DNA from: an uncultured Pseudomonadota bacterium
GTDB lineage: Bacteria > Myxococcota_A > UBA796 > GCA-2862545
Direction of reading: 5' to 3'
NCBI GenBank assembly: GCA_913061235.1
Contig: CAJXTB010000009.1
Coordinates: 186,001 to 250,000, forward strand
DNA: 64,000 nucleotides
This document shows positions 9,976 to 47,581 of this stretch, in pieces. The translations under genes and the position numbers were made by a program. Position 1 is the first letter of the stretch. Each line of letters begins with the position of its first letter. The notes below the pieces were generated by a model that was given only the letters and a program-made list of their open reading frames with translations, was not told the DNA's origin and ran no database searches.

Positions 9976-11088
9976 TCAGTCAAGACGCATCGGCATGATG
10001 ACGAAGAAGGCCCGTGGGTCGTCTGGGTCACTGACTCGGCAGGGTCCCAGAGCGTGTCCCATCTCAAGCAACACACGCTCGCCACGAAGAACATTGAGCA
10101 CGTCTGCCAAGTACTTGCTGTTGAAGCCAATCGTGATGGCCTCACCTTCAAGCTCTGCAGGCAGGGACTCGTTGACTTCACCGCGGTCGACGTTGTGAAC
10201 TTGGACGCTGACTTCGGACTCGGTGAATGCGAAGCGCACTGGACGCGGACGCTCTTGAATCAGCACATGGACGCGCTTGAGGGTGTCCATCAGGGTGGCG
10301 CGGTTGATGAGAACCTTGTGGCGGCCTTCTTTCGGGACCACCGCGTAGATGTCTGGGAACTCACCATCCAGCAGACGGAACCAAAAGGTCTGTCCGGGTC
10401 GTACTAGGCGAATTGCAGCATCACCAAACTCGACAGTCACTGACTCGTGGCCGTCGAGCAACTTGCGGATGACTGCGAGTGCCTTGCGTGGAACCAGCAT
10501 GCGTGGCGTCAGCGTCAGCTCACCGGTGAAGGCAATGTCTGATGCAGAAAGACGATGGCCATCGGTGGCGACCATGCGCAGAACCTCACCCTCTCCGCCG
10601 TCGTAGGCTTCGAGATGTGCACCGTTGAGACCGTAGCGAGCATCATCCGTGCTCACAGCAAAGGCGACTTGTTCCACCTGGCCACGAAGGTCAAGTTCCT
10701 TGACTTCGATGCTGCCCATTGGGTCAAACGCTGGGAGTGGCGGGTACTCTTCGGCAGCGACACCCGGCAAGCGGAAGAACGCTCGACCCGAGCTGATCTC
10801 GAGCCTGTGACCCGCAGTAAGCACAATACGAACTGTTGATTCGGGCAGTGTGCGAACAACCTGAAACAGGCTTGCAGCGTCAATCGCAACTTCACCACCG
10901 GTGGTGATGTTGGCGACGAGGTCGCCAATGAATGCGACTTCGGTGTCTGTGGCAGTCATGCGCAGCCGATCCCCTTCGGCGTGCAGGAGCACATGTGCCA
11001 AGACGGGGTGGGTGCTTCGACGTTCCACCACGCCCTGGATGCGTGCCAGTCCGCGTCCGAGTTCGTCGCGATCGATGTAGAGGTCCAT
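9976..11088 (-). CDS. dnaN: DNA polymerase III beta sliding clamp
   Basis: The beta clamp is a ring-shaped dimer that tethers Pol III and repair proteins to DNA. The 370-residue length matches the three-domain clamp. Domain 2 carries Y-G-L-N-G-A-H-L-E and A-T-D-G-H-R-L, the hydrophobic cleft region. The protein ends with the characteristic V-I-M-P-M-R-L peptide. GGAG lies 9 bases before the ATG. The gene sits directly downstream of the dnaA-dnaN spacer, in the order dnaA-dnaN-recF-gyrB. Confidence 0.98.
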   Translation of the reverse strand: MDLYIDRDELGRGLARIQGVVERRSTHPVLAHVLLHAEGDRLRMTATDTEVAFIGDLVANITTGGEVAIDAASLFQVVRTLPESTVRIVLTAGHRLEISSGRAFFRLPGVAAEEYPPLPAFDPMGSIEVKELDLRGQVEQVAFAVSTDDARYGLNGAHLEAYDGGEGEVLRMVATDGHRLSASDIAFTGELTLTPRMLVPRKALAVIRKLLDGHESVTVEFGDAAIRLVRPGQTFWFRLLDGEFPDIYAVVPKEGRHKVLINRATLMDTLKRVHVLIQERPRPVRFAFTESEVSVQVHNVDRGEVNESLPAELEGEAITIGFNSKYLADVLNVLRGERVLLEMGHALGPCRVSDPDDPRAFFVIMPMRLD

Positions 11089-11377
11089 TTGGGTGCTCCG
11101 CGAGCCACTGTTCTTACAAGAATGGGTAGGATCTATTGATCTAGTAGTCTGTAGTAGGGGCAGTGGATAGTGTGGAAAACTAAAGTTGTTTAGGAATAAG
11201 TAGGGTTACCGAAGAGACAGCTTGCGTGCAGACCTGCGTGTGTAGGAGTGGACGGCTGGGGACACATCGGCATGCCGCCGGTGTCTAGCAGATCTGTCCA
11301 CTGTTCTTCAACAAACAATCCGCAGGTTGTCCATGGATCATTCCACACGGAAAATCCTTGGGTTTGGACAGATCCCA
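11089..11377. other. dnaA-dnaN spacer, candidate oriC
   Basis: The 289-base non-coding spacer between dnaA and dnaN is richer in A/T than its surroundings between about 11110 and 11210. It contains a DnaA-box-like TGTGGAAAA (11171-11179, 8 of 9 to TGTGGATAA) next to AGTGGATAG (11162-11170, 7 of 9), and weaker TGTCCACT and TTCCACAC matches further right. Just left of the boxes are two TAGTAG units (11142-11147, 11152-11157), which resemble the DnaA-trio unwinding element described in Bacillus. Genes on both sides run away from this region. Assignment as oriC is inferred. Confidence 0.55.
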
Positions 11378-12718
11378 TCAGACCTCGCTCCGCAGTTTGA
11401 GCTCAGCTTCGATGAGACGAATCTTGTACGACAGGTCTGCATCGTCTGCGAGCTCACGCTCGACCTTGCGGAAGCCGTGCTGGATGGTGGAGTGGTCTCG
11501 ACCCCCAAACTCTCGACCGAGCTCTGGGAAGGACAAGCTGGTGTGTGTACGGGCCAGGAACATAGCGATCTGGCGCGGACGAGTCAGCGTTCGCGTGCGC
11601 TTCGTCCCAGTGATGTCGGCACTGCGGATGTTGTGCAGCTTGGCCACGGCCTGGATGATCTGGGGGACGGTGACGTCCGGCTTGTTGGACGCGAACAGCT
11701 CCGGCATGGTCCGTTGTGCGAACTCAACGGTGATGGGCTGTCGGTAGAACGCATGCTGCGCCTGAAGCCGCGTGAGGATGCCTTCCACCTCGCGGATGTT
11801 GCCTCGTACAACGCTCGCGATGATGTCTGCGAGGTCCACGGGCAGTGTCAGCCCAATCACATCTGCCTTTCGGAACAAGATGGCGATGAGCGTCTCGCGG
11901 TCGGGCGCTTGCATATCTGCGAGCAGACCACCTTCGAAGCGGGTGCGCAAGCGCGGCATGAGCTTGTCGATGTCGCGTGGTGGGACGTCAGAGGTCAACA
12001 CAATCTGGCGCCCGGAAGTCTGAAGCGCGTTGAAGGTGTGGAAGAACTCTTCCTGTGTCCGGTCTTTTCCCGACAAGAACTGGATGTCGTCTACTAGGAG
12101 GACGCTTGCTTGCTTGCGGTACTTTGTACGGAACTCGTCCATGTTCTTGTAGCGCAGGGCATTGATCATCTCGTTCATGAAGTCTTCAGCGGTGGTGTAG
12201 ACCACCCGCTCGCTTCCGTTGGAACCGATTTCGTTGCCCACGGCATGCATCAAGTGCGTCTTGCCCAGTCCGGTGCCACCATAGATGAACAGCGGATTGT
12301 ATTTGCGTGCCGGCTCTTCAGCGACAGCACACGCTGCGGCGTGGGCAAACTTGTTGCACTCGCCAATGACAAACGAGTTGAACGTCTGCCGTGCGTTCAC
12401 GCCAACGATGGCTCCTGGCAACGTTGCCACCTGAATCACAGGCTCGGGTGCCGGAGTTGGTGGGGTGGGCCGGTCTGTGGTGTGGAAGGTGACGCGCATG
12501 GGTCGCGCCAAGATTCCGGAGACTTCCCTCTCCATTGCCTCTAGGTAGTTCTCCGCAATCCACTCTTCGTAGTAGCGGTTTGGAACCTTCAGGACGAGGC
12601 TGTCCGCCTGCAGCTCACCTGGAACGCACTTCTCAATCCAGACTTCCACGGCTCTAGGGTCTTCGAGCTTTGCGCGAAGGACGAAGAGTAGAGTTTCCCA
12701 GAGGTTCTGGAGGTCCAT
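11378..12718 (-). CDS. dnaA: Chromosomal replication initiator protein DnaA
   Basis: DnaA is the AAA+ initiator that binds DnaA boxes and opens oriC. With the start at 12718 it has 446 residues. The N-terminal domain begins M-D-L-Q-N-L-W-E-T-L; the AAA+ core has G-G-T-G-L-G-K-T (about 147-154) and L-L-V-D-D-I-Q-F. The C-terminal domain IV helix-turn-helix carries G-R-D-H-S-T-I-Q-H-G. The frame remains open to 12856, but the start at 12718 has GAGG at the right spacing and matches the family's usual N-terminus, so I prefer it. The gene faces away from rpmH. Confidence 0.96.
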   Translation of the reverse strand: MDLQNLWETLLFVLRAKLEDPRAVEVWIEKCVPGELQADSLVLKVPNRYYEEWIAENYLEAMEREVSGILARPMRVTFHTTDRPTPPTPAPEPVIQVATLPGAIVGVNARQTFNSFVIGECNKFAHAAACAVAEEPARKYNPLFIYGGTGLGKTHLMHAVGNEIGSNGSERVVYTTAEDFMNEMINALRYKNMDEFRTKYRKQASVLLVDDIQFLSGKDRTQEEFFHTFNALQTSGRQIVLTSDVPPRDIDKLMPRLRTRFEGGLLADMQAPDRETLIAILFRKADVIGLTLPVDLADIIASVVRGNIREVEGILTRLQAQHAFYRQPITVEFAQRTMPELFASNKPDVTVPQIIQAVAKLHNIRSADITGTKRTRTLTRPRQIAMFLARTHTSLSFPELGREFGGRDHSTIQHGFRKVERELADDADLSYKIRLIEAELKLRSEV

Positions 12719-34566: not shown

Positions 34567-36057
34567 TTACGGGATGCCGACCACTACGACGGTCACGTTG
34601 TCTTTGCCGCCGCCATGATGGGCAGCCTTGACCAGCTCACGCGACGCAATGCGTGGGTCGCTGTAGGTCGACAAGATCTCTTGGATGTCGCGGTCTTCGA
34701 CCTCGCCCCACAGTCCATCTGAACACAAGATCACCCGGTCACCCGTCTGCAGGTCCACCCGGAAGATGTCGATGTCGACGTCGCGCTCGGTACCGACCGT
34801 GCGCAGGAGGATGTTGCTGTGCGGATGGGTGCGTGCTTCTTCGGCGGTAATGCGCCCACGCTCAACCATTTTGGCAACCAAGCTGTGGTCACGGGTCACC
34901 GGATGCAGCTCACGGTCGCGGAACAGGTAGCCACGTGAGTCCCCGACGTTGGCGACGAGCGCGGTCTTGCCTTCGAGTAGCAGCATCGACACCAAGGTGG
35001 TGCCCATGTCGTTGCCCTTCTCTTCGGCGTGCTCTTTGATGGTGTTGTTGGCCGTCTGGAAGGCGTGATCGAACAGCTCTTCGAGGGCGTCGAGCCCAGC
35101 GGGCTGTAGTTTCTCTTGCTCTTCGGCAATGCGACAGATGGTCTCTACGGCGAGCTCGCTGGCGACTTCTCCGCCGTCATGGCCACCCATGCCGTCTGCG
35201 ACCACGTACAATCGAGCGCGATCGGAGAGCTTGCGCCAGCCCCAGTTGTCTTCGTTTAGCTGACGAACCAAGCCAACATCGGTCATGCCGGCGATAGTCG
35301 GTGTAGGACCGCCATTGACGAACTGTTCGTAGCGTTTGTCTACTTCGCGGCCGAAGGTCGCGGGTGAGCTGAAAGCACCTTCCCAAGCGGCGCGCAGGAA
35401 GGTCTGAAGCTCAGTATCTTCGACATCACAGTAGCGGCGCAGCATGTGGCCAACGCTGTTGAGCTCGGCATTGCGGTGAGCTTCGGGAACAGGGCCGTCA
35501 TGGACCGCTTCGACTTCGAGGTCGAACAGCCGCACCGAGTTGTCACGCGCGATGATCAGGTTGGCAGGCTTGATGCGAGCGAGCTGAACGCCGTTGTTGT
35601 GCAAGAAAGCCAGGGTGCCGGCCAGGCGCTGTGCCAAGTCAATGACCCGGGTGCTGGCCAGAGGTGCAGCCTCGTCCAGCATCAGGCCTTCGCCCGAGTA
35701 CGGGACGACGGTGAACAGCTGACGCTCGTTGTGGATGAAGACATCCACGGGTCGGAGCATGCCTGGATGTTCCAACTTTTTGTCGAACCAAGCCAGGGTC
35801 GCGTCGAAGCGTTCGTGCATCCAACGGGTGGCTAAGAGGAACCGGCGGTCGGACAGTGGCGCGTTGCATGAGATGCATTCACGAACAGCACGGTCGTTCT
35901 CAGTTTCACACTCCCAACACTTGCGCGTGGGGCGGTCCGGTCGCGCATCCGTTGCTAGGTAGAACATCCGGCCCTCTGCAAGGCGGACGAGTCCCTCTAC
36001 AACGTAGTGCTCACCAAGTAGGGTTCCAGGCGGAAGATGCGCGGGCCGATCAGCCAT
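34567..36057 (-). CDS. Pseudokinase-zinc ribbon-PP2C phosphatase fusion
   Basis: A 496-residue protein. The N-terminal 240 residues have the Ser/Thr kinase fold but are degenerate: the H-R-D position reads L-A-R (in A-R-I-K-P-A-N, about 160-166) and D-F-G reads D-L-E (179-181). A zinc ribbon is inserted (Cys47, Cys50, Cys61, Cys64). Residues from about 255 form a complete PP2C domain with metal-binding motifs N-E-D, V-A-D-G-M-G-G-H, N-V-G-D-S-R, S-D-G-L-W and G-G-K-D-N-V. So it is probably an active Ser/Thr phosphatase regulated by a non-catalytic kinase module. It may reverse the action of the receptor kinase at 28.4-31.0 kb; that is inference. Confidence 0.9.
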   Translation of the reverse strand: MADRPAHLPPGTLLGEHYVVEGLVRLAEGRMFYLATDARPDRPTRKCWECETENDRAVRECISCNAPLSDRRFLLATRWMHERFDATLAWFDKKLEHPGMLRPVDVFIHNERQLFTVVPYSGEGLMLDEAAPLASTRVIDLAQRLAGTLAFLHNNGVQLARIKPANLIIARDNSVRLFDLEVEAVHDGPVPEAHRNAELNSVGHMLRRYCDVEDTELQTFLRAAWEGAFSSPATFGREVDKRYEQFVNGGPTPTIAGMTDVGLVRQLNEDNWGWRKLSDRARLYVVADGMGGHDGGEVASELAVETICRIAEEQEKLQPAGLDALEELFDHAFQTANNTIKEHAEEKGNDMGTTLVSMLLLEGKTALVANVGDSRGYLFRDRELHPVTRDHSLVAKMVERGRITAEEARTHPHSNILLRTVGTERDVDIDIFRVDLQTGDRVILCSDGLWGEVEDRDIQEILSTYSDPRIASRELVKAAHHGGGKDNVTVVVVGIP

Positions 36058-36310
36058 GTCGTGGCATGTCCATTGATTAGTTGAGGCGCGAGGTAGCGCG
36101 ATTCCAGGCAGCTTAGCGCACGTAGCGACGCAGGGGGGGCAAACGCACTGTCACCATGATTTCAGACGCTTTTGTGTCAGTCAGCTGACGAACTTGAGGT
36201 CGAGCATGCGCTCGTGACGGATTGGGACTATGAGCGCCCACCTGGGACCAGCCAACGGCGGAATCCTGGGGCACACTGGCAACGATTGCTGGCTTCTCCT
36301 GGAGATTCGA

Positions 36311-37204
36311 ATGACTTGGCGTTCTCTGTCCCTAATTGCATTGCTCACCCCGCTGACTCTGGTCGGATGTCCTCCTGAGGATCCTTCGGATACCAACGAA
36401 GGCACCGAAGGAACTGACGGAACCGACGGCACTGACGGTACCGATGGCACTGACGGAACCGACGGTACAGATGCACCTGATTTCAACTGCCACGTGTTGC
36501 CATCGTCCCTGCCTGATTGGGCCGGCGATCTCAACCCACCCGCACTCGCGACCACCACGCCATTCGCGTTTGACGCGGGTCTCGATGACGTCATCGCTGC
36601 TCTGCCTGCAAACGGCGAGACGGCAACCGTCAACATCCCAGTGACCGGTGCTGTCGTCACCACCTTGGGCTTCAACCCCGAAGCTGACCTGGGTGTGGTC
36701 CATACGTTCTACGTTGGTGATGCAACCGGCGGCGCTCTGGTCCGTCTCGACTTCACGGACGACACAACAGCCGTTGACGTCGTTCCTGGTGACGCTCTCA
36801 ACTTCACCGTCACTGAGATGGAGAACTTCAACGGTCTGCTTCAGATCGCTGCCATCTCCGACCTTACCGTGACTTCGCAGGCCAATGAGGTCTACATCGT
36901 CGCTTCGACCGGTCTCGCCATCGACACCGTCAATGACATCAGCGTTGTGCATCAGCTGCACGGTGAGCTCACAAGCTCCGAGAGCGGCTGTGGCGGTTCC
37001 TCGGTCTGCTTTGACTTCGAGACCCGTGATGGCGACATCGCAGTCGTCAGCACCCTGCGCATCAACAACAACAACCTGCAGACTCCCCTCATTGAGGGTG
37101 ACTGTGTTCAGGTGAACGCGCCGCTCACGCAGTTCAACGGCGATGCACAATTCAACATCGGGAACTTCGCATGGCAACGCTGGTACGGAAATATCAACGA
37201 CTAG
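36311..37204 (+). CDS. Lipoprotein with Gly-Thr-Asp repeat linker and OB-like fold
   Basis: Starting at ATG 36311 (GGAG ahead), residues 1-18 form a signal with lipobox L-T-L-V-G-C. A linker of G-T-D units (36400-36475) follows, then a Cys-containing, strand-rich domain with P-G-D-A-L-N-F-T-V-T-E and G-L-L-Q-I-A, reminiscent of OB-fold domains in extracellular nucleases. 297 residues. The 3' end overlaps the next lipoprotein gene by 34 bases. First gene of a six-gene operon ending at 43361. Confidence 0.78.
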   Translation: MTWRSLSLIALLTPLTLVGCPPEDPSDTNEGTEGTDGTDGTDGTDGTDGTDGTDAPDFNCHVLPSSLPDWAGDLNPPALATTTPFAFDAGLDDVIAALPANGETATVNIPVTGAVVTTLGFNPEADLGVVHTFYVGDATGGALVRLDFTDDTTAVDVVPGDALNFTVTEMENFNGLLQIAAISDLTVTSQANEVYIVASTGLAIDTVNDISVVHQLHGELTSSESGCGGSSVCFDFETRDGDIAVVSTLRINNNNLQTPLIEGDCVQVNAPLTQFNGDAQFNIGNFAWQRWYGNIND

Positions 37205-38070
37205 TCGGATTCTGCGGTCTCACCGCCCTCACTGCGTGCGTTGGTACGCGTGATGGCGTGGAGAACCCGGATGGCTGGTTTGATGACGGCTCCCAGATTG
37301 GTGTCGAAGAGTTCGTTGCGTTCACCGATGTCAACTACGACATTGCTGAAGGCGACGGAATTCGCGGCCTGAAAGACGCTGTCTTTCCGGTTGCGGCCGG
37401 CGGCGCTGGACGGGACACTCTAGTGTTCGGTGCGGACGATTCATCGGCTGAGGCCGGTGGATGTGCGCTCGAAACGAACCGCGAGCTTCCGTACATCGTC
37501 GAAGGCATTGCCACTGCCCATCCTCGCTTCTACTTTAAGAGTAGCGGTTGTGAGTGGGACAGCGACGAGAAGTACTACGGCAGTTTCTTCATCCAAGATG
37601 AGACCGGTGGCCAGATGGTCCTCGGCGACACCAAAGTGGCGAAGTTCGACATGGGCGACCGTGTTCGAATTCTTGTTCGCGGCGTGAAGACCAGCTTCGA
37701 GCTGGACATGGTGTACAGCTACGACCTGATCGACATTGTCGAGCGGGCCCAGCCCATCTTCTACGAAGAAATTGATCGTGAGTTCCGCTGTGACCTCGCA
37801 GAGCCCATCGACTGGGACGAGTGTGACACCGGCCGCGTGAAGCGCGTGACGGGAACCGTTGTGACGGACAAGGACACCTTCGGAGAGTTCGCCATCGAGA
37901 GTGATGACGGCATCCGCTGGAGCATTGGTCTTGACGTTGAACTCAATCGCCGTGGCATCAACTACCCTATTGGTACTCGCATTACGGCGACCGGACCCGT
38001 CCTGTACAGCTTCAGCGCTTACTCCCTCGTGGTCATGCGTAAGGGCCAAATCCAGGTTCTTGACGAGTAA
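37171..38070 (+). CDS. Lipoprotein with two OB-like domains
   Basis: A 299-residue protein with signal and lipobox (L-T-A-C, Cys23). Two strand-rich units look like OB folds: G-S-F-F-I-Q-D-E-T-G-G-Q (about residue 130) with M-G-D-R-V-R-I-L-V-R-G, and F-G-E-F-A-I-E-S-D-D-G (about 233) with I-G-T-R-I-T-A-T-G. This G-x-F-x-I-Q-D plus G-D-x-V-x-x-x-G pattern is seen in surface OB-fold proteins that accompany nucleases. Six Cys. Starts inside the end of the previous gene and ends before a terminator-like hairpin. Confidence 0.75.
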   Translation: MATLVRKYQRLVGFCGLTALTACVGTRDGVENPDGWFDDGSQIGVEEFVAFTDVNYDIAEGDGIRGLKDAVFPVAAGGAGRDTLVFGADDSSAEAGGCALETNRELPYIVEGIATAHPRFYFKSSGCEWDSDEKYYGSFFIQDETGGQMVLGDTKVAKFDMGDRVRILVRGVKTSFELDMVYSYDLIDIVERAQPIFYEEIDREFRCDLAEPIDWDECDTGRVKRVTGTVVTDKDTFGEFAIESDDGIRWSIGLDVELNRRGINYPIGTRITATGPVLYSFSAYSLVVMRKGQIQVLDE

Positions 38071-38153
38071 ACAGCTCGGACGTCAGAGGTCTGTGCGTGG
38101 CTCTTTACGAGTCACGCGGCATTTCCGATCTCGGACAGACGTCCAACCTAAAC

Positions 38154-38173
38154 GCAGGCCGCTTGCGGCCTGC
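38154..38173 (+). terminator. Hairpin between lipoprotein and porin genes
   Basis: GCAGGCCGC (38154-38162) pairs with GCGGCCTGC (38165-38173), followed by a T-rich stretch (TCTGATTTCTGACTTCTGAC). It lies 84 bases after the second lipoprotein and 75 before the barrel gene. It could be a partial terminator that lowers downstream expression. Confidence 0.6.
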
Positions 38174-38248
38174 TCTGATTTCTGACTTCTGACATCTGAA
38201 CTCCCGCTGCCCAACCTACAGGGCCGTGGTGAGAATCCGGAGATTCCA

Positions 38249-39790
38249 ATGTTCGCACGCGCCATCTGCGCTTTGTCGCTACTCACTGCATCCACCGCCT
38301 TGGCCCAAGACATTGAGTACTTGGACCCAGAGTTTGAGGGTGAAGAAGAGTCCAAGCTGCACGTCAACGGCATGTTTGAGACCCAGTGGCATGAGTACAA
38401 CAACCTGGACTTCCGTCTTCGGGATGAGACCTCTGACCAGACCATTCTGGACTCCGACGACCGCAACAGTTTTGCGTTCACCGGCGCTTCGTTGGCTCTC
38501 GCCTACGACGCTGACCCACGCACGACCATCGGTGTCGCCGTCGCTCACCGTGGCCTCTGGGGCAACGACCAGATCGGCAACATCAACCCCTTCGGCGGGT
38601 TCCTCTGGTTCAGTGCCTTGTTCGTCGAGCACAAGTTCGGCACGGGCGACAACGCGGTCAGCTTCAAGGTGGGTCGTCAGTTCTTCGACATCGGCGGCAT
38701 GCCTTCCAATGACTACGTCCTCGCCGACGTTCTCGACATGGTTCGCGTTGATGTCCCGATTGAAGGCGTTGGCTCCTTGGTGGTCATCCCAATGAACGTC
38801 GCTGGCCTTTCCAGTGGTACCGGTGACGCGAACTTCGTGTCCTTCATCGGTCAGAACACGACCCAGACCTTCGGGTTCCGCGGCGACCATATGACCCGTC
38901 GTAGCGGTGCAGTGCTCATCGTCGACAAGGCGGTCGAGGACTTGGATGTCCGCGCCTACGGCTTCTACACCGACATTGGTGCTCTCGGAAGCGGCTCGGA
39001 CATCTCGTACAACGGCGCGCTCGGCAACTTCAGCGACAACGACTGGGTGCTCAACGTAGGTGTCCGTGGTTCGTACGACGCCGGTGTCGTGACCCCCTAC
39101 GCTCACTTCGACTACTCGAACGGTGTTGACCGCAAGGAAGAGATCGTTGCGGACGTCGCTACCACCGGATTCGCCTTTGGCGGCGGTGCCCGCGTCAAGC
39201 TCGGTGACGACGAAGCCGGATTCCGTGGTGACCTTGGCTACTTCCAAGCGACCGGCGGCAGTGCCGGCCGCGACGGCCTGATGTTCAACCACGGTTACGT
39301 GGGAATGAAGGCCCGCCAAGTTGGCGGAATCCTCGGCAACCGTTTCCTCGGTTGGCATCCCACCGCATACGTGGGCATGTTCGGAATCGCTGACAACCCG
39401 CAGGACACAAGCCGCAAGGCCGGAATGCGCGTCATCGAAGCCCACGCTGGCTACGACTTTGGTCGCACCGCCTTCGACGTTGGCTACTGGTTCATGCAGG
39501 ACACCGCGACCAGCACCTACGACCGCGTTGACCAAGCCAATGAAGACGCACCCTTTGGCTACAGTCGCGAAGAGTTCTTCGCGCAGGAGCGCTACGGCGC
39601 TGTCCTCGGACACGAAATCAACGGCCATGTCGACTACGACCTGACCGATAGCTTCCGTCTCCAGGCCAACGGTGGCGTGTTCTTGCCGGGCAGTTTCTAC
39701 GAAACAGACATCGCGCGTGTTGCGGGTACTGCACTTGGTGGGGACCAATTCGCATGGGCCATCAACGGTGGCCTCCGCGTGGGGTTCTAA
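38249..39790 (+). CDS. Outer-membrane beta-barrel protein
   Basis: A 513-residue protein with a signal peptide (residues 1-19, A-L-A-Q). The rest alternates short amphipathic strands and loops with many Gly, Tyr, Phe and Asp, ending in G-G-L-R-V-G-F, with the C-terminal Phe required for outer-membrane barrel assembly. It probably forms a porin-like channel. The substrate is unknown. Its stop is immediately followed by the ATG of the lamin-tail lipoprotein, so it belongs to the same operon. GGAG precedes the ATG. Confidence 0.82.
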   Translation: MFARAICALSLLTASTALAQDIEYLDPEFEGEEESKLHVNGMFETQWHEYNNLDFRLRDETSDQTILDSDDRNSFAFTGASLALAYDADPRTTIGVAVAHRGLWGNDQIGNINPFGGFLWFSALFVEHKFGTGDNAVSFKVGRQFFDIGGMPSNDYVLADVLDMVRVDVPIEGVGSLVVIPMNVAGLSSGTGDANFVSFIGQNTTQTFGFRGDHMTRRSGAVLIVDKAVEDLDVRAYGFYTDIGALGSGSDISYNGALGNFSDNDWVLNVGVRGSYDAGVVTPYAHFDYSNGVDRKEEIVADVATTGFAFGGGARVKLGDDEAGFRGDLGYFQATGGSAGRDGLMFNHGYVGMKARQVGGILGNRFLGWHPTAYVGMFGIADNPQDTSRKAGMRVIEAHAGYDFGRTAFDVGYWFMQDTATSTYDRVDQANEDAPFGYSREEFFAQERYGAVLGHEINGHVDYDLTDSFRLQANGGVFLPGSFYETDIARVAGTALGGDQFAWAINGGLRVGF

Positions 39791-40498
39791 ATGCGATTCT
39801 TCCTACCACTTCTCGCCCTTGTGGCGTGTAATCCCGACCCGACGGATCAGATCGATCAGGGCGTCGGGTACCGAACGCCACAAGAAGGCGCCGGAACCAG
39901 CGGTGAGCGCGGTAATGTCGCGATCAGCGAGATCCTGTGGTCGGGCTCCGTCCGCAGTGATGGAACCTGGGACCCGACCGACATCTTCATTGAGATTCGC
40001 AATCAGGGGAGCTTGCCAGTCAATCTCTCCGGCTGGCGGATTGATCTCGAAGGCGTCTACGAGACCGGCTGGCGCATTCCGGACAGCGACCTTGTTCTTG
40101 AGACCGGAGAACACAGGTTCATCGCGGCCAAGGACACCGGCTGCTTCCCGAATCCCGACTGGATCATCCCAGATCTCTTTGCCCCGCTGAATGACCCCAT
40201 GCGGTACACGCTGAAAGACGCTGATGAGCGTCTGATCGAGCCTGCAGGGTCGAAGACTCAGCCGCCATTCGCCGGAGGCTACGACCTTGTTCGCAGCCGG
40301 TCGATGGAGCGCATTGAGTTGATGTTCGGTGGCCGTGGCTCAGAGCCGCAGAGCTGGCATTACTACAATGAGCAGGTCGAAGACATCCCGAACAACGTCG
40401 AAATGCTCGAAGACTGCCGTGAGCGCACTCTCGCGAGCCCTGGTCGCGCAAACAGCAAGGACTACTCCGGTGCCTTGTCTGCTGGAGGCTTTGAATGA
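39791..40498 (+). CDS. Lamin-tail-domain lipoprotein
   Basis: A 235-residue protein with signal and lipobox (A-L-V-A-C, Cys13). A lamin-tail (LTD-type) beta-sandwich is indicated by V-A-I-S-E-I-L-W-S, D-I-F-I-E-I-R-N and L-S-G-W-R-I. In bacteria LTDs occur in surface proteins, often with nucleases or phosphohydrolases. It starts directly after the barrel stop and overlaps the next gene by ATGA. The same domain recurs at the C-terminus of the PLD enzyme two genes downstream. Confidence 0.82.
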   Translation: MRFFLPLLALVACNPDPTDQIDQGVGYRTPQEGAGTSGERGNVAISEILWSGSVRSDGTWDPTDIFIEIRNQGSLPVNLSGWRIDLEGVYETGWRIPDSDLVLETGEHRFIAAKDTGCFPNPDWIIPDLFAPLNDPMRYTLKDADERLIEPAGSKTQPPFAGGYDLVRSRSMERIELMFGGRGSEPQSWHYYNEQVEDIPNNVEMLEDCRERTLASPGRANSKDYSGALSAGGFE

Positions 40499-41643
40499 GA
40501 CTCGCAACACTCGCCCCACTTGCGGCATTGGTCACGTCTTGCACGCTCGACCTTGAAGCCAGTGACTTCCGCCATGAAGTCAGCATGCATGTTGTCGACG
40601 CTGCCGAGACTTCGGCGCGCATGATCAACAGCATTGATGCTGCAGAACGCACGCTCGACGTTGCTCTGCCAGTCCTGACGGACACCAACATCTCCGACGC
40701 CATTGTCCGCGCCAAAGAGCGTGGAGTAGCCCTCCGCGTCATCACCGACATTGACCAAGCCGGAGACGCTGGTGTTGTCGCTCTGGTGGCCGCTGAAGTG
40801 CCGCTGCGCCTGGCAGATGGCGCATTGTCGTACTTTGACTTCAACATCAACACCAACGTCACCTTCGCCAGCGAAGAGGTTCGCATGAGCCATGCGTGGG
40901 TGTTGGTCGATGAAGAGCGTGCAACCCTCGCGTCGTACGCAGGCTCACTGGACGCTGGCAACCGAACCGTATTCGAGCTGCGCGGCGAAGACCTTCTTGA
41001 AGACCTGTGGACGGAGCACAACCAAGTGTTCGGCGGAAGTGACGCTACCGCCACGACCGCCTTTGATGACTCGGCCAAGTCCATTGCGGACTTCCGTTGG
41101 TTGTACCCAACGGACTCGCAGATGGCGCTTGAGATCTGGTTTGGTCCGCAAGAACGCCTAACGAAGCGCATGATCGACGCTGTGTACTCAGCCAAGTCCA
41201 CCATCTGGGTCAGCAGTGACCAGATCATCAACGAAGGCCTGATTCGCGCTCTTGAGTACAAGGCTCGTGACGGCTTTGATGTGCGCGTACTCGTTGGCGA
41301 CAAGCAGGCTGTGCAGTTCAATCCACGCACGCCGCCGGCGCTATTGGCGACCGAGACTCCCAACGTCTCCAAGCGTCGTCTGACTGGTGAGGTCTTGCCG
41401 ACCATGCTGCTCATTGACTACGAAATCGCCCGCGACGGGAACAACTACCCCACACGCGCTTTCATGCTGTCTCACGACATGGTCAGTGCCAGCCGCTTGT
41501 TCCAACAGACAACCGTTGCCAACGACCAGCTGATCGACGGAAACCTGATGGTTTTGAACGATTGGAAGGCTGACTTGCATCCGGACATGGTCGAATTGCG
41601 TACCTTGTTCGAGTCCATGTACGACCGCGGAGGTGACCTATGA
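40495..41643 (+). CDS. Phospholipase-D-fold lipoprotein, catalytically degenerate
   Basis: A 382-residue protein with signal and lipobox (L-V-T-S-C, Cys16) and two PLD-fold halves. Neither half has an intact H-x-K-x4-D motif: the first reads H-A-W-V-L-V-D-E (His133, Trp at the Lys position), the second L-P-T-M-L-L-I-D (no His or Lys). So it should not cleave phosphodiesters. It overlaps its neighbours by ATGA on both sides, and the next gene has both motifs intact. A structural or substrate-binding partner role is inferred. Confidence 0.82.
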   Translation: MRLATLAPLAALVTSCTLDLEASDFRHEVSMHVVDAAETSARMINSIDAAERTLDVALPVLTDTNISDAIVRAKERGVALRVITDIDQAGDAGVVALVAAEVPLRLADGALSYFDFNINTNVTFASEEVRMSHAWVLVDEERATLASYAGSLDAGNRTVFELRGEDLLEDLWTEHNQVFGGSDATATTAFDDSAKSIADFRWLYPTDSQMALEIWFGPQERLTKRMIDAVYSAKSTIWVSSDQIINEGLIRALEYKARDGFDVRVLVGDKQAVQFNPRTPPALLATETPNVSKRRLTGEVLPTMLLIDYEIARDGNNYPTRAFMLSHDMVSASRLFQQTTVANDQLIDGNLMVLNDWKADLHPDMVELRTLFESMYDRGGDL

Positions 41644-43361
41644 ACCGCTTGATCGCAGCAGCCTCTGTCCTGTTGATGGCCTGCAATCCGGCGCCTGACG
41701 AAGCGGACCTTGAAGGGACCCGTGGCGGTCGCGTAGACATCTTCTTCAATGACCCCGGCACCCGACCCAGCAATATGTGGGAGCCAGATGCAGAAGATGT
41801 GCTTGTTGAGGCCATTGATGGCGCTCAGGTGACATTGGACTTGGCGGTCATGGGCTTCACCCGCCAGCGCGTGATTGACGCTGTTGTGCGTGCAGACGAC
41901 CGCGGTGTTGTCGTCCGGTTCGTCGGAGACGCCGGTCACTTGTACAACCGTGGCTACCAGACCATGGCGGATGAACACATTCCGATGGTTGTGGGCAATG
42001 GCCCGCACATCATGCATCACAAGTTCTTTCTGATCGACAGCCGCTTTGTCTTCGCAGGAACGGCCAACATCAGCCCCACGGACTTGCGTCGCAACAGCAA
42101 CAACTTCGTGTACATCGACAGCCCGCCGGTTGCTGCTGACTTTCTAGACGAGTTCAACCAGATGTTTGCCGGCCGGTTCGGCAATACCAAGGTTGAGATC
42201 GACAACGGCCGCGTCTACCAAGTGGGCGATACCGAAGTTGAAGTCTGGTTCAGTCCGAACGAAGACGCCATGGGACGCATTCTCGAGTACGTGGATGCCG
42301 CCGAAGAGTCCGTTCGCTTCGCCATCTTTGCGTTCACCAAGGACCAGATTGGCTCGGCGTTCATCCGCAAGTCCATCGAGTTTGAGGACATGAACGAGCT
42401 GGACGACGGAACCCGCGTGGTCTCCGGTGTCATCGACCAGTCTCAGCTGCACAGTAATGGCCAGTTTCATGAGGTCTTCCGCCTCTTGGGCGCCGGCATT
42501 CCGATGCGTATGGACGGCAACGACAATGGCCGCCAGCCTGGTGACTACCAGGCCGGTGGTGGGCGTCTTCACAGTAAGACCATGATTATCGACGCTGACG
42601 GCATGGACCCGCTGGTCCTGACCGGCTCGTTCAACTGGTCGAGCTCTGCGACCATCAGTAACGACGAGTTCTTGTTGGTCCTGAAGGGACCGCGCGTCAC
42701 TGAGGCCTTTAAGGACTACTGGGACGGCTTGTGGGATGGCGGACGCCACCTCGGCGGCGCCAACATGGACGATGACGGTATTGAGCCTGGCGACGTGATC
42801 ATCAACGAAGTCATGTGGTTCGGTGTCAACAGCCAAGACACAGACGGAAACGACGAGTTTATCGAGCTGCGCAACACCACAGACGAGTGGATAAACCTCG
42901 ACTTGTGGCAGATCAGCAACGAGAACGACTTTGTTGTTGGCTTGCCACCGGGCTCGCGGATTCCGCCGAACGGCACCTTCCTCATCCTCGACCACACCCT
43001 AGAGCCCTACGCCGACGGTGTTCCGCAAGATGAGCTGTCTGCCTTTAGCGGTGCTGACTTGGTACTCAACCCGTTCAACGACAACCGTGCTGCACGCTTG
43101 TACCTCAAGGATGGCCAGGTGGAGCTGTTCTTGAAGGACCCGCAGAACAACGTCATCGACCGTGCAGGAGATGGCGGACCGGCCTTCTACGGTGGTATCG
43201 ATGGTCGCGTGATTCGCAGCATGGAGCGTCTGTCTCCACCGGGTGACGGGTCGGACTCCGACAACTGGCAGGCCTGTGGTCTGACCGAGGGCGGCGAGAA
43301 CGTCAACGAAGACTTCAAGGGTGAGATCATGGCCACACCAGGCGAAGAAAACTCCGAGTAG
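41640..43361 (+). CDS. Phospholipase-D-family lipoprotein with lamin-tail domain
   Basis: A 573-residue protein. Signal and lipobox L-L-M-A-C (Cys15). PLD half 1 has H-H-K-F-F-L-I-D (His126, Lys128, Asp133) and half 2 has H-S-K-T-M-I-I-D (His311, Lys313, Asp318), each followed by the G-T/S-x-N-x-S block. Both half-sites are intact, so phosphodiesterase activity is expected (nuclease or phospholipase). A lamin-tail domain starts at about residue 378 (I-I-N-E-V-M-W-F, E-F-I-E-L-R-N). It is surface- or periplasm-anchored and the last gene of the operon, before a strong terminator. Confidence 0.9.
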   Translation: MNRLIAAASVLLMACNPAPDEADLEGTRGGRVDIFFNDPGTRPSNMWEPDAEDVLVEAIDGAQVTLDLAVMGFTRQRVIDAVVRADDRGVVVRFVGDAGHLYNRGYQTMADEHIPMVVGNGPHIMHHKFFLIDSRFVFAGTANISPTDLRRNSNNFVYIDSPPVAADFLDEFNQMFAGRFGNTKVEIDNGRVYQVGDTEVEVWFSPNEDAMGRILEYVDAAEESVRFAIFAFTKDQIGSAFIRKSIEFEDMNELDDGTRVVSGVIDQSQLHSNGQFHEVFRLLGAGIPMRMDGNDNGRQPGDYQAGGGRLHSKTMIIDADGMDPLVLTGSFNWSSSATISNDEFLLVLKGPRVTEAFKDYWDGLWDGGRHLGGANMDDDGIEPGDVIINEVMWFGVNSQDTDGNDEFIELRNTTDEWINLDLWQISNENDFVVGLPPGSRIPPNGTFLILDHTLEPYADGVPQDELSAFSGADLVLNPFNDNRAARLYLKDGQVELFLKDPQNNVIDRAGDGGPAFYGGIDGRVIRSMERLSPPGDGSDSDNWQACGLTEGGENVNEDFKGEIMATPGEENSE

Positions 43362-46753: not shown

Positions 46754-47581
46754 CTATCGCGACTCTAGCCATTCGCGGTTGCGATGCCGTTCGTCGTGGC
46801 AGGTTCCTTGGCAGGTGCTTCCGTCGAAGGTGATTTCGTCATCTGGCATCTGAACGTCCACGGTCCCGTTGACATGTCCCGCGGCATTGATGATGCGTCC
46901 GTTGTCGGCAACGGTGGGTCCGTGGCACTCGAAGCAGCCGACGTCGTGAGACTCATGCTCACGGTGCTGTCCGCCCAGGTCGCGCACTCTCGCCAACACG
47001 CTGTCTGGCCCTGCGTGGCACAGCTCACAGCTATCTGTTCGGTCGGTATGTAGGGCTTGACCTGGTGTCTCGCCGCCTGAGCTGTGGCAGTACAGGTTGG
47101 CACAGGTGCCGTTGGTGCGGTTCCAGTCCGCGTCTGGGGACAAGCTCTCGGTGAACACCACTTCGGCAGCCGCCGGAGTGGTGTCGCCTGCGAAGATGTG
47201 ACCGATAGACAGCACGTCCTGGGGCATGTCATGGCAGCTCTGGCATGGAACGGCCTCATGGGTCTCACTGGCCATGACGTGTTCGCTGTGCGCCTCGAAC
47301 GACTGACCTTCGCTGGCGAATGAACCGTCGATGTACCTGGGGGGAGCGCCTTCATCGTCTAGGTCGCCACCGTGGCAGAACGTACAGTCTTCGCGCCATC
47401 CAGCGTCATGACAGCTGTCGCAGGAGACCTCAGAGGTGCCGCCGGTCAGTTCCGCTCCGTGGCACTCGGTGCAGTTGTCCACCTGGAGTTTCGCTTCGGT
47501 TCCGTGGTTGTCGGGTTTTTGGTACCCCCAGGGGTGTGCGCCACAGGCGGCGAACAGCAGGGGCCAGGCAAGTCGATGCAT
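46754..47581 (-). CDS. Multiheme c-type cytochrome lipoprotein
   Basis: A 275-residue lipoprotein (lipobox L-F-A-A-C, Cys13) with six C-x-x-C-H heme sites (C-T-E-C-H, C-D-S-C-H, C-T-F-C-H, C-Q-S-C-H, C-E-L-C-H, C-F-E-C-H) and two variant sites, C-A-N-L-Y-C-H (C-x4-C-H) and C-Q-G-T-C-H (C-x3-C-H). The C-x4-C-H spacing matches cytochromes known in Geobacter and relatives. It probably carries electrons at or across the outer membrane. No other cytochrome gene is adjacent, so the electron partners are unknown. It diverges from the gene at 47660. Confidence 0.88.
   Translation of the reverse strand: MHRLAWPLLFAACGAHPWGYQKPDNHGTEAKLQVDNCTECHGAELTGGTSEVSCDSCHDAGWREDCTFCHGGDLDDEGAPPRYIDGSFASEGQSFEAHSEHVMASETHEAVPCQSCHDMPQDVLSIGHIFAGDTTPAAAEVVFTESLSPDADWNRTNGTCANLYCHSSGGETPGQALHTDRTDSCELCHAGPDSVLARVRDLGGQHREHESHDVGCFECHGPTVADNGRIINAAGHVNGTVDVQMPDDEITFDGSTCQGTCHDERHRNREWLESR

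Follow-up and report, generated by a model that had tools for sequence, protein, structure and literature searches.

A conserved gene cassette of OB, LTD and PLD lipoproteins with an outer-membrane barrel in Myxococcota, tentatively assigned to nucleic-acid degradation at the cell surface

What would a bacterium do with five predicted lipoproteins and one outer-membrane barrel encoded side by side? The question is raised by positions 36311-43361 of a 64,000-nucleotide window (the whole stretch of DNA analysed here) from contig C9 of the 7.2-Mb draft genome of an uncultured member of the Myxococcota. An earlier inspection of the letters alone, hereafter the sequence-only reading, had described six consecutive plus-strand genes there and had suggested that they encode a channel-bearing surface machine that binds and cuts an extracellular phosphodiester polymer or lipid. 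All six open reading frames, here called g1 to g6, were found. We show that they constitute a discrete, sharply bounded, phylum-level gene unit, and we propose, at a probability of roughly 45%, that their products form an outer-membrane-anchored complex that degrades nucleic acid and feeds the fragments to a channel; the surface site, the complex and the substrate are all predicted features of this proposal.

A phylum-level gene unit

The distribution of the cassette was traced through its last gene, g6, in a pattern-based scan of one genome per species for 84,980 bacterial and archaeal species, a search that could miss remote sets outside the phylum. Relatives of g6 were found at 68 loci. About 55 of these are true orthologs, and here, as far as the contigs extend, profile searches placed g1-g5 upstream of g6 in unchanged order. 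The remaining 13 loci, in cyanobacteria, archaea, Elusimicrobia and a few myxobacteria, encode distant phospholipase D (PLD) proteins without the cassette. Cassette-bearing records are filed under Deltaproteobacteria, Myxococcota, Myxococcales, unclassified proteobacteria or bacteria, and Lujinxingia vulgaris, whose genus belongs to the Bradymonabacteria. Records of metagenome-assembled genomes titled Klebsiella pneumoniae or Rhodobacterales (L055, L064, L070, L098) appear to be members of the family or order of the window's own genome and are probably mislabelled.

The order g1-g2-g3-g4-g5-g6 on one strand was observed in every near-relative locus long enough to judge. The genes are tightly packed: in the window g1 and g2 overlap, g3 and g4 abut, and g4/g5 and g5/g6 each share 4 bases, so that the earlier description of mostly overlapping or abutting genes holds except for a 178-base gap between g2 and g3. 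Overlap or abutment is likewise seen in most other loci, with median gaps of -1 (g3-g4), -4 (g4-g5) and -4 (g5-g6). The first gene, g1, was not found in some otherwise complete cassettes (L023, L024, L033, L050), where a gene for a PP2C-type phosphatase adjoins g2 directly. Beyond this upstream divergent PP2C gene, shared within one family, no flanking gene was common across the loci.

Co-occurrence of the genes in other genomes, on which the idea of a joint machine depended, was pronounced. Among 380 genomes of the phylum the barrel gene g3 was present in 43 and g6 in 44 (g6 profile above 300 bits; scores are bimodal), with both in 43 and the barrel never found without g6. The two lie on the same contig in 38 of the 43 genomes, and in the sole genome with g6 and no barrel (G117) g6 sits at a contig edge. 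The association has a Fisher p of 4e-56, a statistic that ignores relatedness. For every pairing among the six genes the inter-ortholog distances are also correlated (Spearman 0.58-0.82); for the nearest 22 loci the g3-g6, g4-g6 and g5-g6 correlations exceed all 500 permutations, although such correlations can be explained by shared descent alone.

Three paralogous pairs around one barrel

Lipobox-type N-termini can be read in five of the proteins (LVGC in g1, LTAC in g2, LVAC in g4, VTSC in g5 and LMAC in g6), and g3 has an ordinary signal peptide and the C-terminal aromatic residue of outer-membrane barrels. A hydrophobic stretch with a lipobox-like cysteine was recovered in 26 of 30 orthologs of g1, 36 of 40 of g2, 44 of 48 of g4, 44 of 50 of g5 and 45 of 54 of g6; these counts stem from automatic start-picking over all loci, and the misses may represent wrong starts or truncated ends.

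The predicted catalytic component is g6 (41640-43361, plus strand), a putative phosphodiesterase in which Pfam recognises two PLDc_2 domains (1.2e-33, 116 bits against a cut-off of 27) and a C-terminal lamin-tail domain (LTD; 9e-12), both above cut-off. Its first half-site (H126/K128/D133) is invariant in 53 of 53 aligned orthologs and its second (H311/K313/D318) in 54 of 54, as are residues T141, N143, G329, S330 and N332, with E343 kept in 53 orthologs. Invariance of the half-sites indicates that catalysis is under selection, and the earlier assignment of two active half-sites is borne out at the level of the motifs, activity itself being a prediction. The preceding gene, g5 (40495-41643, plus strand), encodes a PLD-fold lipoprotein (PLDc_2, 8e-13) that had been described as lacking catalytic residues, and the HxKxxxxD motif is indeed absent throughout all 50 g5 orthologs, in which phenylalanine mainly replaces the first lysine and the second His-x-Lys is gone. 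Since the motif is lost in 50 orthologs of the one protein and retained in 53-54 of the other, both states must be old and have been kept.

Upstream of these lies g4 (39791-40498, plus strand), a lipoprotein whose LTD match (2e-7) falls slightly below the Pfam cut-off and which is homologous to the g6 LTD (hhalign probability 99.2). The corresponding comparison of g5 with the PLD part of g6 gave a probability of 99.5, and that of g1 with g2 over their oligonucleotide/oligosaccharide-binding (OB) region gave 97.8 (E 7e-13). By profile comparison there are thus three paralogous pairs (g1 with g2, g4 with the g6 LTD, and g5 with the g6 PLD part), of OB, LTD and live/dead PLD type respectively, grouped about a single barrel. 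Judging from homology and gene order, g4 and g5 together read like a split and, in effect, inactivated copy of g6.

Other arrangements of these domains were also observed. Contig C6 (L029, 7696-10275, minus strand) encodes a stand-alone lipoprotein of about 860-874 amino acids with a PLD domain and three LTDs, 31-34% identical to the PLD part of g6, and single-gene PLD plus LTD forms occur in about 12 other genomes of the phylum, several of them without the barrel. An open reading frame of 831 amino acids with four LTDs lies on contig C12 (81132-83096; L030), and there are 21 LTD matches genome-wide.

To what kind of PLD enzyme does g6 belong? NucT models match all 23 of the g6 orthologs tested (best 1.6e-20), whereas no cardiolipin synthase model matches more than 6 of the 23, and then weakly (best 4e-5). 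Among solved structures the closest profile matches are MitoPLD/Zucchini (1e-18), Nuc (7e-17) and NucT (1e-14), followed by the PLD3/PLD4 exonucleases, all of which have HxKxxxxD half-sites as in g6. By profile, then, the PLD part of g6 belongs to the nuclease type. However, Nuc and NucT carry one half-site per chain, while g6 has two together with a lipobox and an LTD, and its scores lie far below the curated cut-offs of the NucT models NF010490-NF010493 (46.2 bits against 297, and 43.8 against 225). Matches to DrmC of the anti-phage system DISARM were considered and rejected, at 29 bits against a cut-off of 133 and with lipoprotein signals on the proteins; no other defence system was recognised among the six genes, and no companion defence genes were found.

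These data bear directly on the strongest of the rival explanations, namely that g6 is an envelope lipid enzyme that hydrolyses or transfers phospholipid headgroups, of the cell's own outer leaflet or of prey membranes, in which case g3 would serve as a general porin and the OB and LTD proteins would form a scaffold. In its favour, phospholipases and cardiolipin synthases belong to the PLD superfamily, mitochondrial cardiolipin hydrolase is the name of the solved sequence nearest to g6, and every non-barrel part is predicted to be membrane-anchored. Nevertheless MitoPLD/Zucchini is itself also a nuclease, the profile models favour NucT over cardiolipin synthase as described above, and it is hard to see what OB domains would contribute to lipid chemistry, so that we consider a lipid substrate unlikely.

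The nuclease-type assignment of g6 is accompanied by predicted OB domains in the first two proteins. For g2 (37171-38070, plus strand), Pfam returned only weak DUF5818/DUF5689 matches and a search for sequence relatives in the PDB gave chance-level matches only. An AlphaFold2 model built with 21 orthologs shows two OB domains (predicted local distance difference test score, pLDDT, of 83.9, mostly above 90 in these domains), and the nearest solved domains are the OB folds of archaeal RPA, Ten1, human RPA14, AsnRS and AspRS (Z 10.6-9, root-mean-square deviation about 2). Foldseek further retrieved the tandem-OB proteins Teb1 and POT1 and HIN domains at low whole-chain TM-scores, and the arrangement of the two domains therefore differs. 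The predicted fold of g2 is thus an OB fold rather than an unrelated one, and the modelled domains resemble nucleic-acid-binding OB domains. Pfam gave nothing useful for g1 (36311-37204, plus strand), whose probable OB-type domains are indicated by its profile homology to g2. Of the two OB-like lipoproteins of the sequence-only reading, one is accordingly backed by a structural model and the other by kinship with the first.

The remaining protein, g3 (38249-39790, plus strand), had been called an outer-membrane barrel, and its AlphaFold2 model (pLDDT 75.9, predicted TM-score 0.80) agrees, showing a barrel in which 18 long strands were counted. The best structural match is AlgE (Z 25.0, root-mean-square deviation 3.8 over 364 residues), followed by the OprD/Occ porins (Z about 22), which share the 18-strand fold. 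Conserved acidic residues are placed in the predicted extracellular loops, and the conserved columns are enriched in arginine, lysine and histidine (17% versus 7%, p 0.008).

AlgE passes an anionic polymer and is the closest fold to g3, which suggests a second rival, in which the cassette processes or exports a surface polymer, with g3 passing a polysaccharide or a phosphodiester-containing polymer that the PLD protein trims or modifies. A barrel fold seen in both g3 and AlgE would not, however, establish a common cargo. No sequence relative of g3 was found in the PDB, Pfam returned nothing useful for it and listed no Alginate_exp match at E values up to 1, and its lumen, by a rough estimate, would not be electropositive, although the conserved columns are rich in arginine. 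In addition, polysaccharide synthesis genes do not accompany the cassette, and no polymer-synthesis gene recurs beside it among flanks that differ from locus to locus. Polymer export is on this evidence a little less likely still than lipid chemistry.

A candidate complex for extracellular nucleic acid

A degradative complex for nucleic acid would accommodate most of the observations above. According to this proposal, the OB lipoproteins g1 and g2 would grip nucleic acid that is single-stranded or partly melted, and g6 would cut it in its two-half-site centre through a phospho-histidine intermediate, as is standard in PLD chemistry. The dead PLD protein g5 and the LTD protein g4 would pair with g6, either as scaffold or for positioning the substrate, and fragments would pass, or be handed on, through the 18-strand barrel. 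The likely use would be to recover nucleotides and phosphate from DNA and RNA of the environment or of prey. The sequence-only reading, in which a channel-bearing surface machine attacks a phosphodiester, is consistent with most of what was observed, with surface location, complex formation, catalysis, substrate and product passage as its predicted elements.

A precedent for the domain set is ExeM of Shewanella oneidensis, a proven extracellular nuclease in which a nuclease domain is joined to an LTD and two putative OB folds; it is inactive without its OB region and weakened without its LTD (PMC6085458). Fused LTDs are also found in DNases of halophiles (PMC4486849). The cassette resembles ExeM in having LTDs (g6 above and g4 just under the cut-off), tandem OB folds (modelled for g2 and suggested by homology for g1) and a phosphodiesterase domain, in proteins that are secreted or predicted to be envelope-associated. 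In contrast, ExeM is a single polypeptide with an EEP catalytic domain, which Pfam did not detect in the cassette's six proteins, whereas the cassette distributes its parts over separate lipoproteins, relies on PLD catalysis and adds a dead paralog and a barrel. All the parts have folds known before, and their closest known counterpart is the LTD/OB extracellular nuclease; what is new are the split architecture, the kept dead PLD partner and the dedicated barrel. A literature search, with many subscription journals outside its reach, found no description of this combination.

A further clue comes from three related loci (L080, at 10944-11807; L081; L104), where a lipoprotein of the e(P4)/acid-phosphatase family starts 2 bases after g6. 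One copy was tested and gave a Pfam match of 3e-37; with TIGR01533, the model of the e(P4) 5'-nucleotidase lipoproteins, whose cut-off is 216, it scored 176 bits. Such enzymes would act on nuclease products, and the gene would suit a route by which nucleic acid is broken down to nucleoside and phosphate, although it is absent from the window's own cassette. Bradymonabacteria are reported to be predators in which purine synthesis, and often pyrimidine synthesis too, is incomplete (PMC7460792), and in our hand count a strong PurE match is missing in 16 of 44 cassette genomes versus 44 of 336 others. Where the sequence-only reading left the choice between polymer and lipid, the evidence leans to nucleic acid, because of the NucT/Nuc/MitoPLD-type PLD domain, the nucleic-acid-type OB domains, the ExeM-like domain set and the 5'-nucleotidase-family gene at the three loci.

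Several points weigh against this assignment. PLD and OB folds both also serve tasks that do not involve nucleic acid. All six proteins are acidic, a property that would disfavour DNA binding, and their mean net charges run from -6 to -14 per 100 residues; neither basic nor aromatic residues are enriched in the conserved columns of g1 and g2; and the lumen of g3 is estimated to be net acidic (-6.4, a rough figure from strand alternation), unlike the lumen known from AlgE, although the conserved columns of g3 are enriched in basic residues. Extracellular proteins of this genome appear to be generally acidic (three comparison lipoproteins only), and among halophile DNases there is an acidic one that binds DNA through a separate domain (PMC4486849). 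The e(P4)-family neighbour is confined to one lineage, and the PurE association is confounded by relatedness, with over half of the cassette genomes having PurE. It is on account of the acidic proteins and lumen estimate, the OB columns that are not enriched in basic residues, and a surface exposure that is itself a prediction that we place the nucleic-acid complex somewhat below even odds.

The same parts, a NucT-like PLD protein, OB domains of the single-stranded-DNA type and an outer-membrane channel, would be expected of DNA uptake for transformation, with OB proteins and nuclease preparing a single strand that enters via g3 instead of by the secretin route. Competence genes do not recur in the vicinity, the presence of the cassette is patchy (44 of 380 genomes) and the lumen estimate is acidic, and we regard this role as very unlikely. 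Least plausible of all is an adhesion or surface-structure complex with incidental PLD activity, which could draw on the low-complexity acidic linkers and LTDs of the lipoproteins, the LTD having been proposed as a targeting domain for membrane structures (PMC6085458), but the invariant g6 half-sites speak against it.

Gene starts, neighbouring genes and implications

For g1, the start at 36311 was preferred over a longer frame from an ATG at 36230 because it has a GGAG shortly before it and the lipobox LVGC after it. Positions 36401-36560 of this gene encode an acidic, collagen-like (TDG)n repeat linker ahead of the OB-type domains, where orthologs mostly have (TD/AD/SD)n linkers instead. Within the g2-g3 gap a perfect 8-bp GC-rich hairpin (38154-38173, plus strand) precedes a T-rich stretch and may act as an attenuator or terminator that separates expression of g1-g2 from that of g3-g6; terminator-like sites in the region are no more numerous than expected by chance in a pattern scan. 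No Rfam match, and hence no RNA element, was found in the cassette, and a consensus scan found no sigma-70 promoters, this consensus being uninformative for the organism. Divergent from the cassette, at 34567-36057 on the minus strand, is the PP2C-type phosphatase gene, whose product has a degenerate kinase-like N-terminus and a zinc ribbon; it adjoins the cassette in several genomes of the same family and may share its regulation there. Downstream, 46754-47581 on the minus strand encodes a predicted multihaem c-type cytochrome lipoprotein with a CxxxxCH/CxxCH domain.

A bolder form of the nucleic-acid proposal, which we hold to be doubtful, is that the cassette encodes an undescribed outer-membrane machine in which OB proteins capture, an active/dead PLD pair cuts and a dedicated AlgE-like channel imports, as a nucleic-acid counterpart of polysaccharide-utilisation systems in Myxococcota, including the predatory Bradymonadia. 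If the nucleic-acid proposal is right, a phylum that includes nucleotide-auxotrophic predators would possess a dedicated surface system for extracellular nucleic acid, at the outer-membrane step of nucleic-acid salvage that is poorly understood in these organisms. The active/dead PLD pair, kept phylum-wide, offers a natural test case for the role of a pseudoenzyme partner, and the presence of the cassette in the named, cultured species Lujinxingia vulgaris makes the proposal directly testable.

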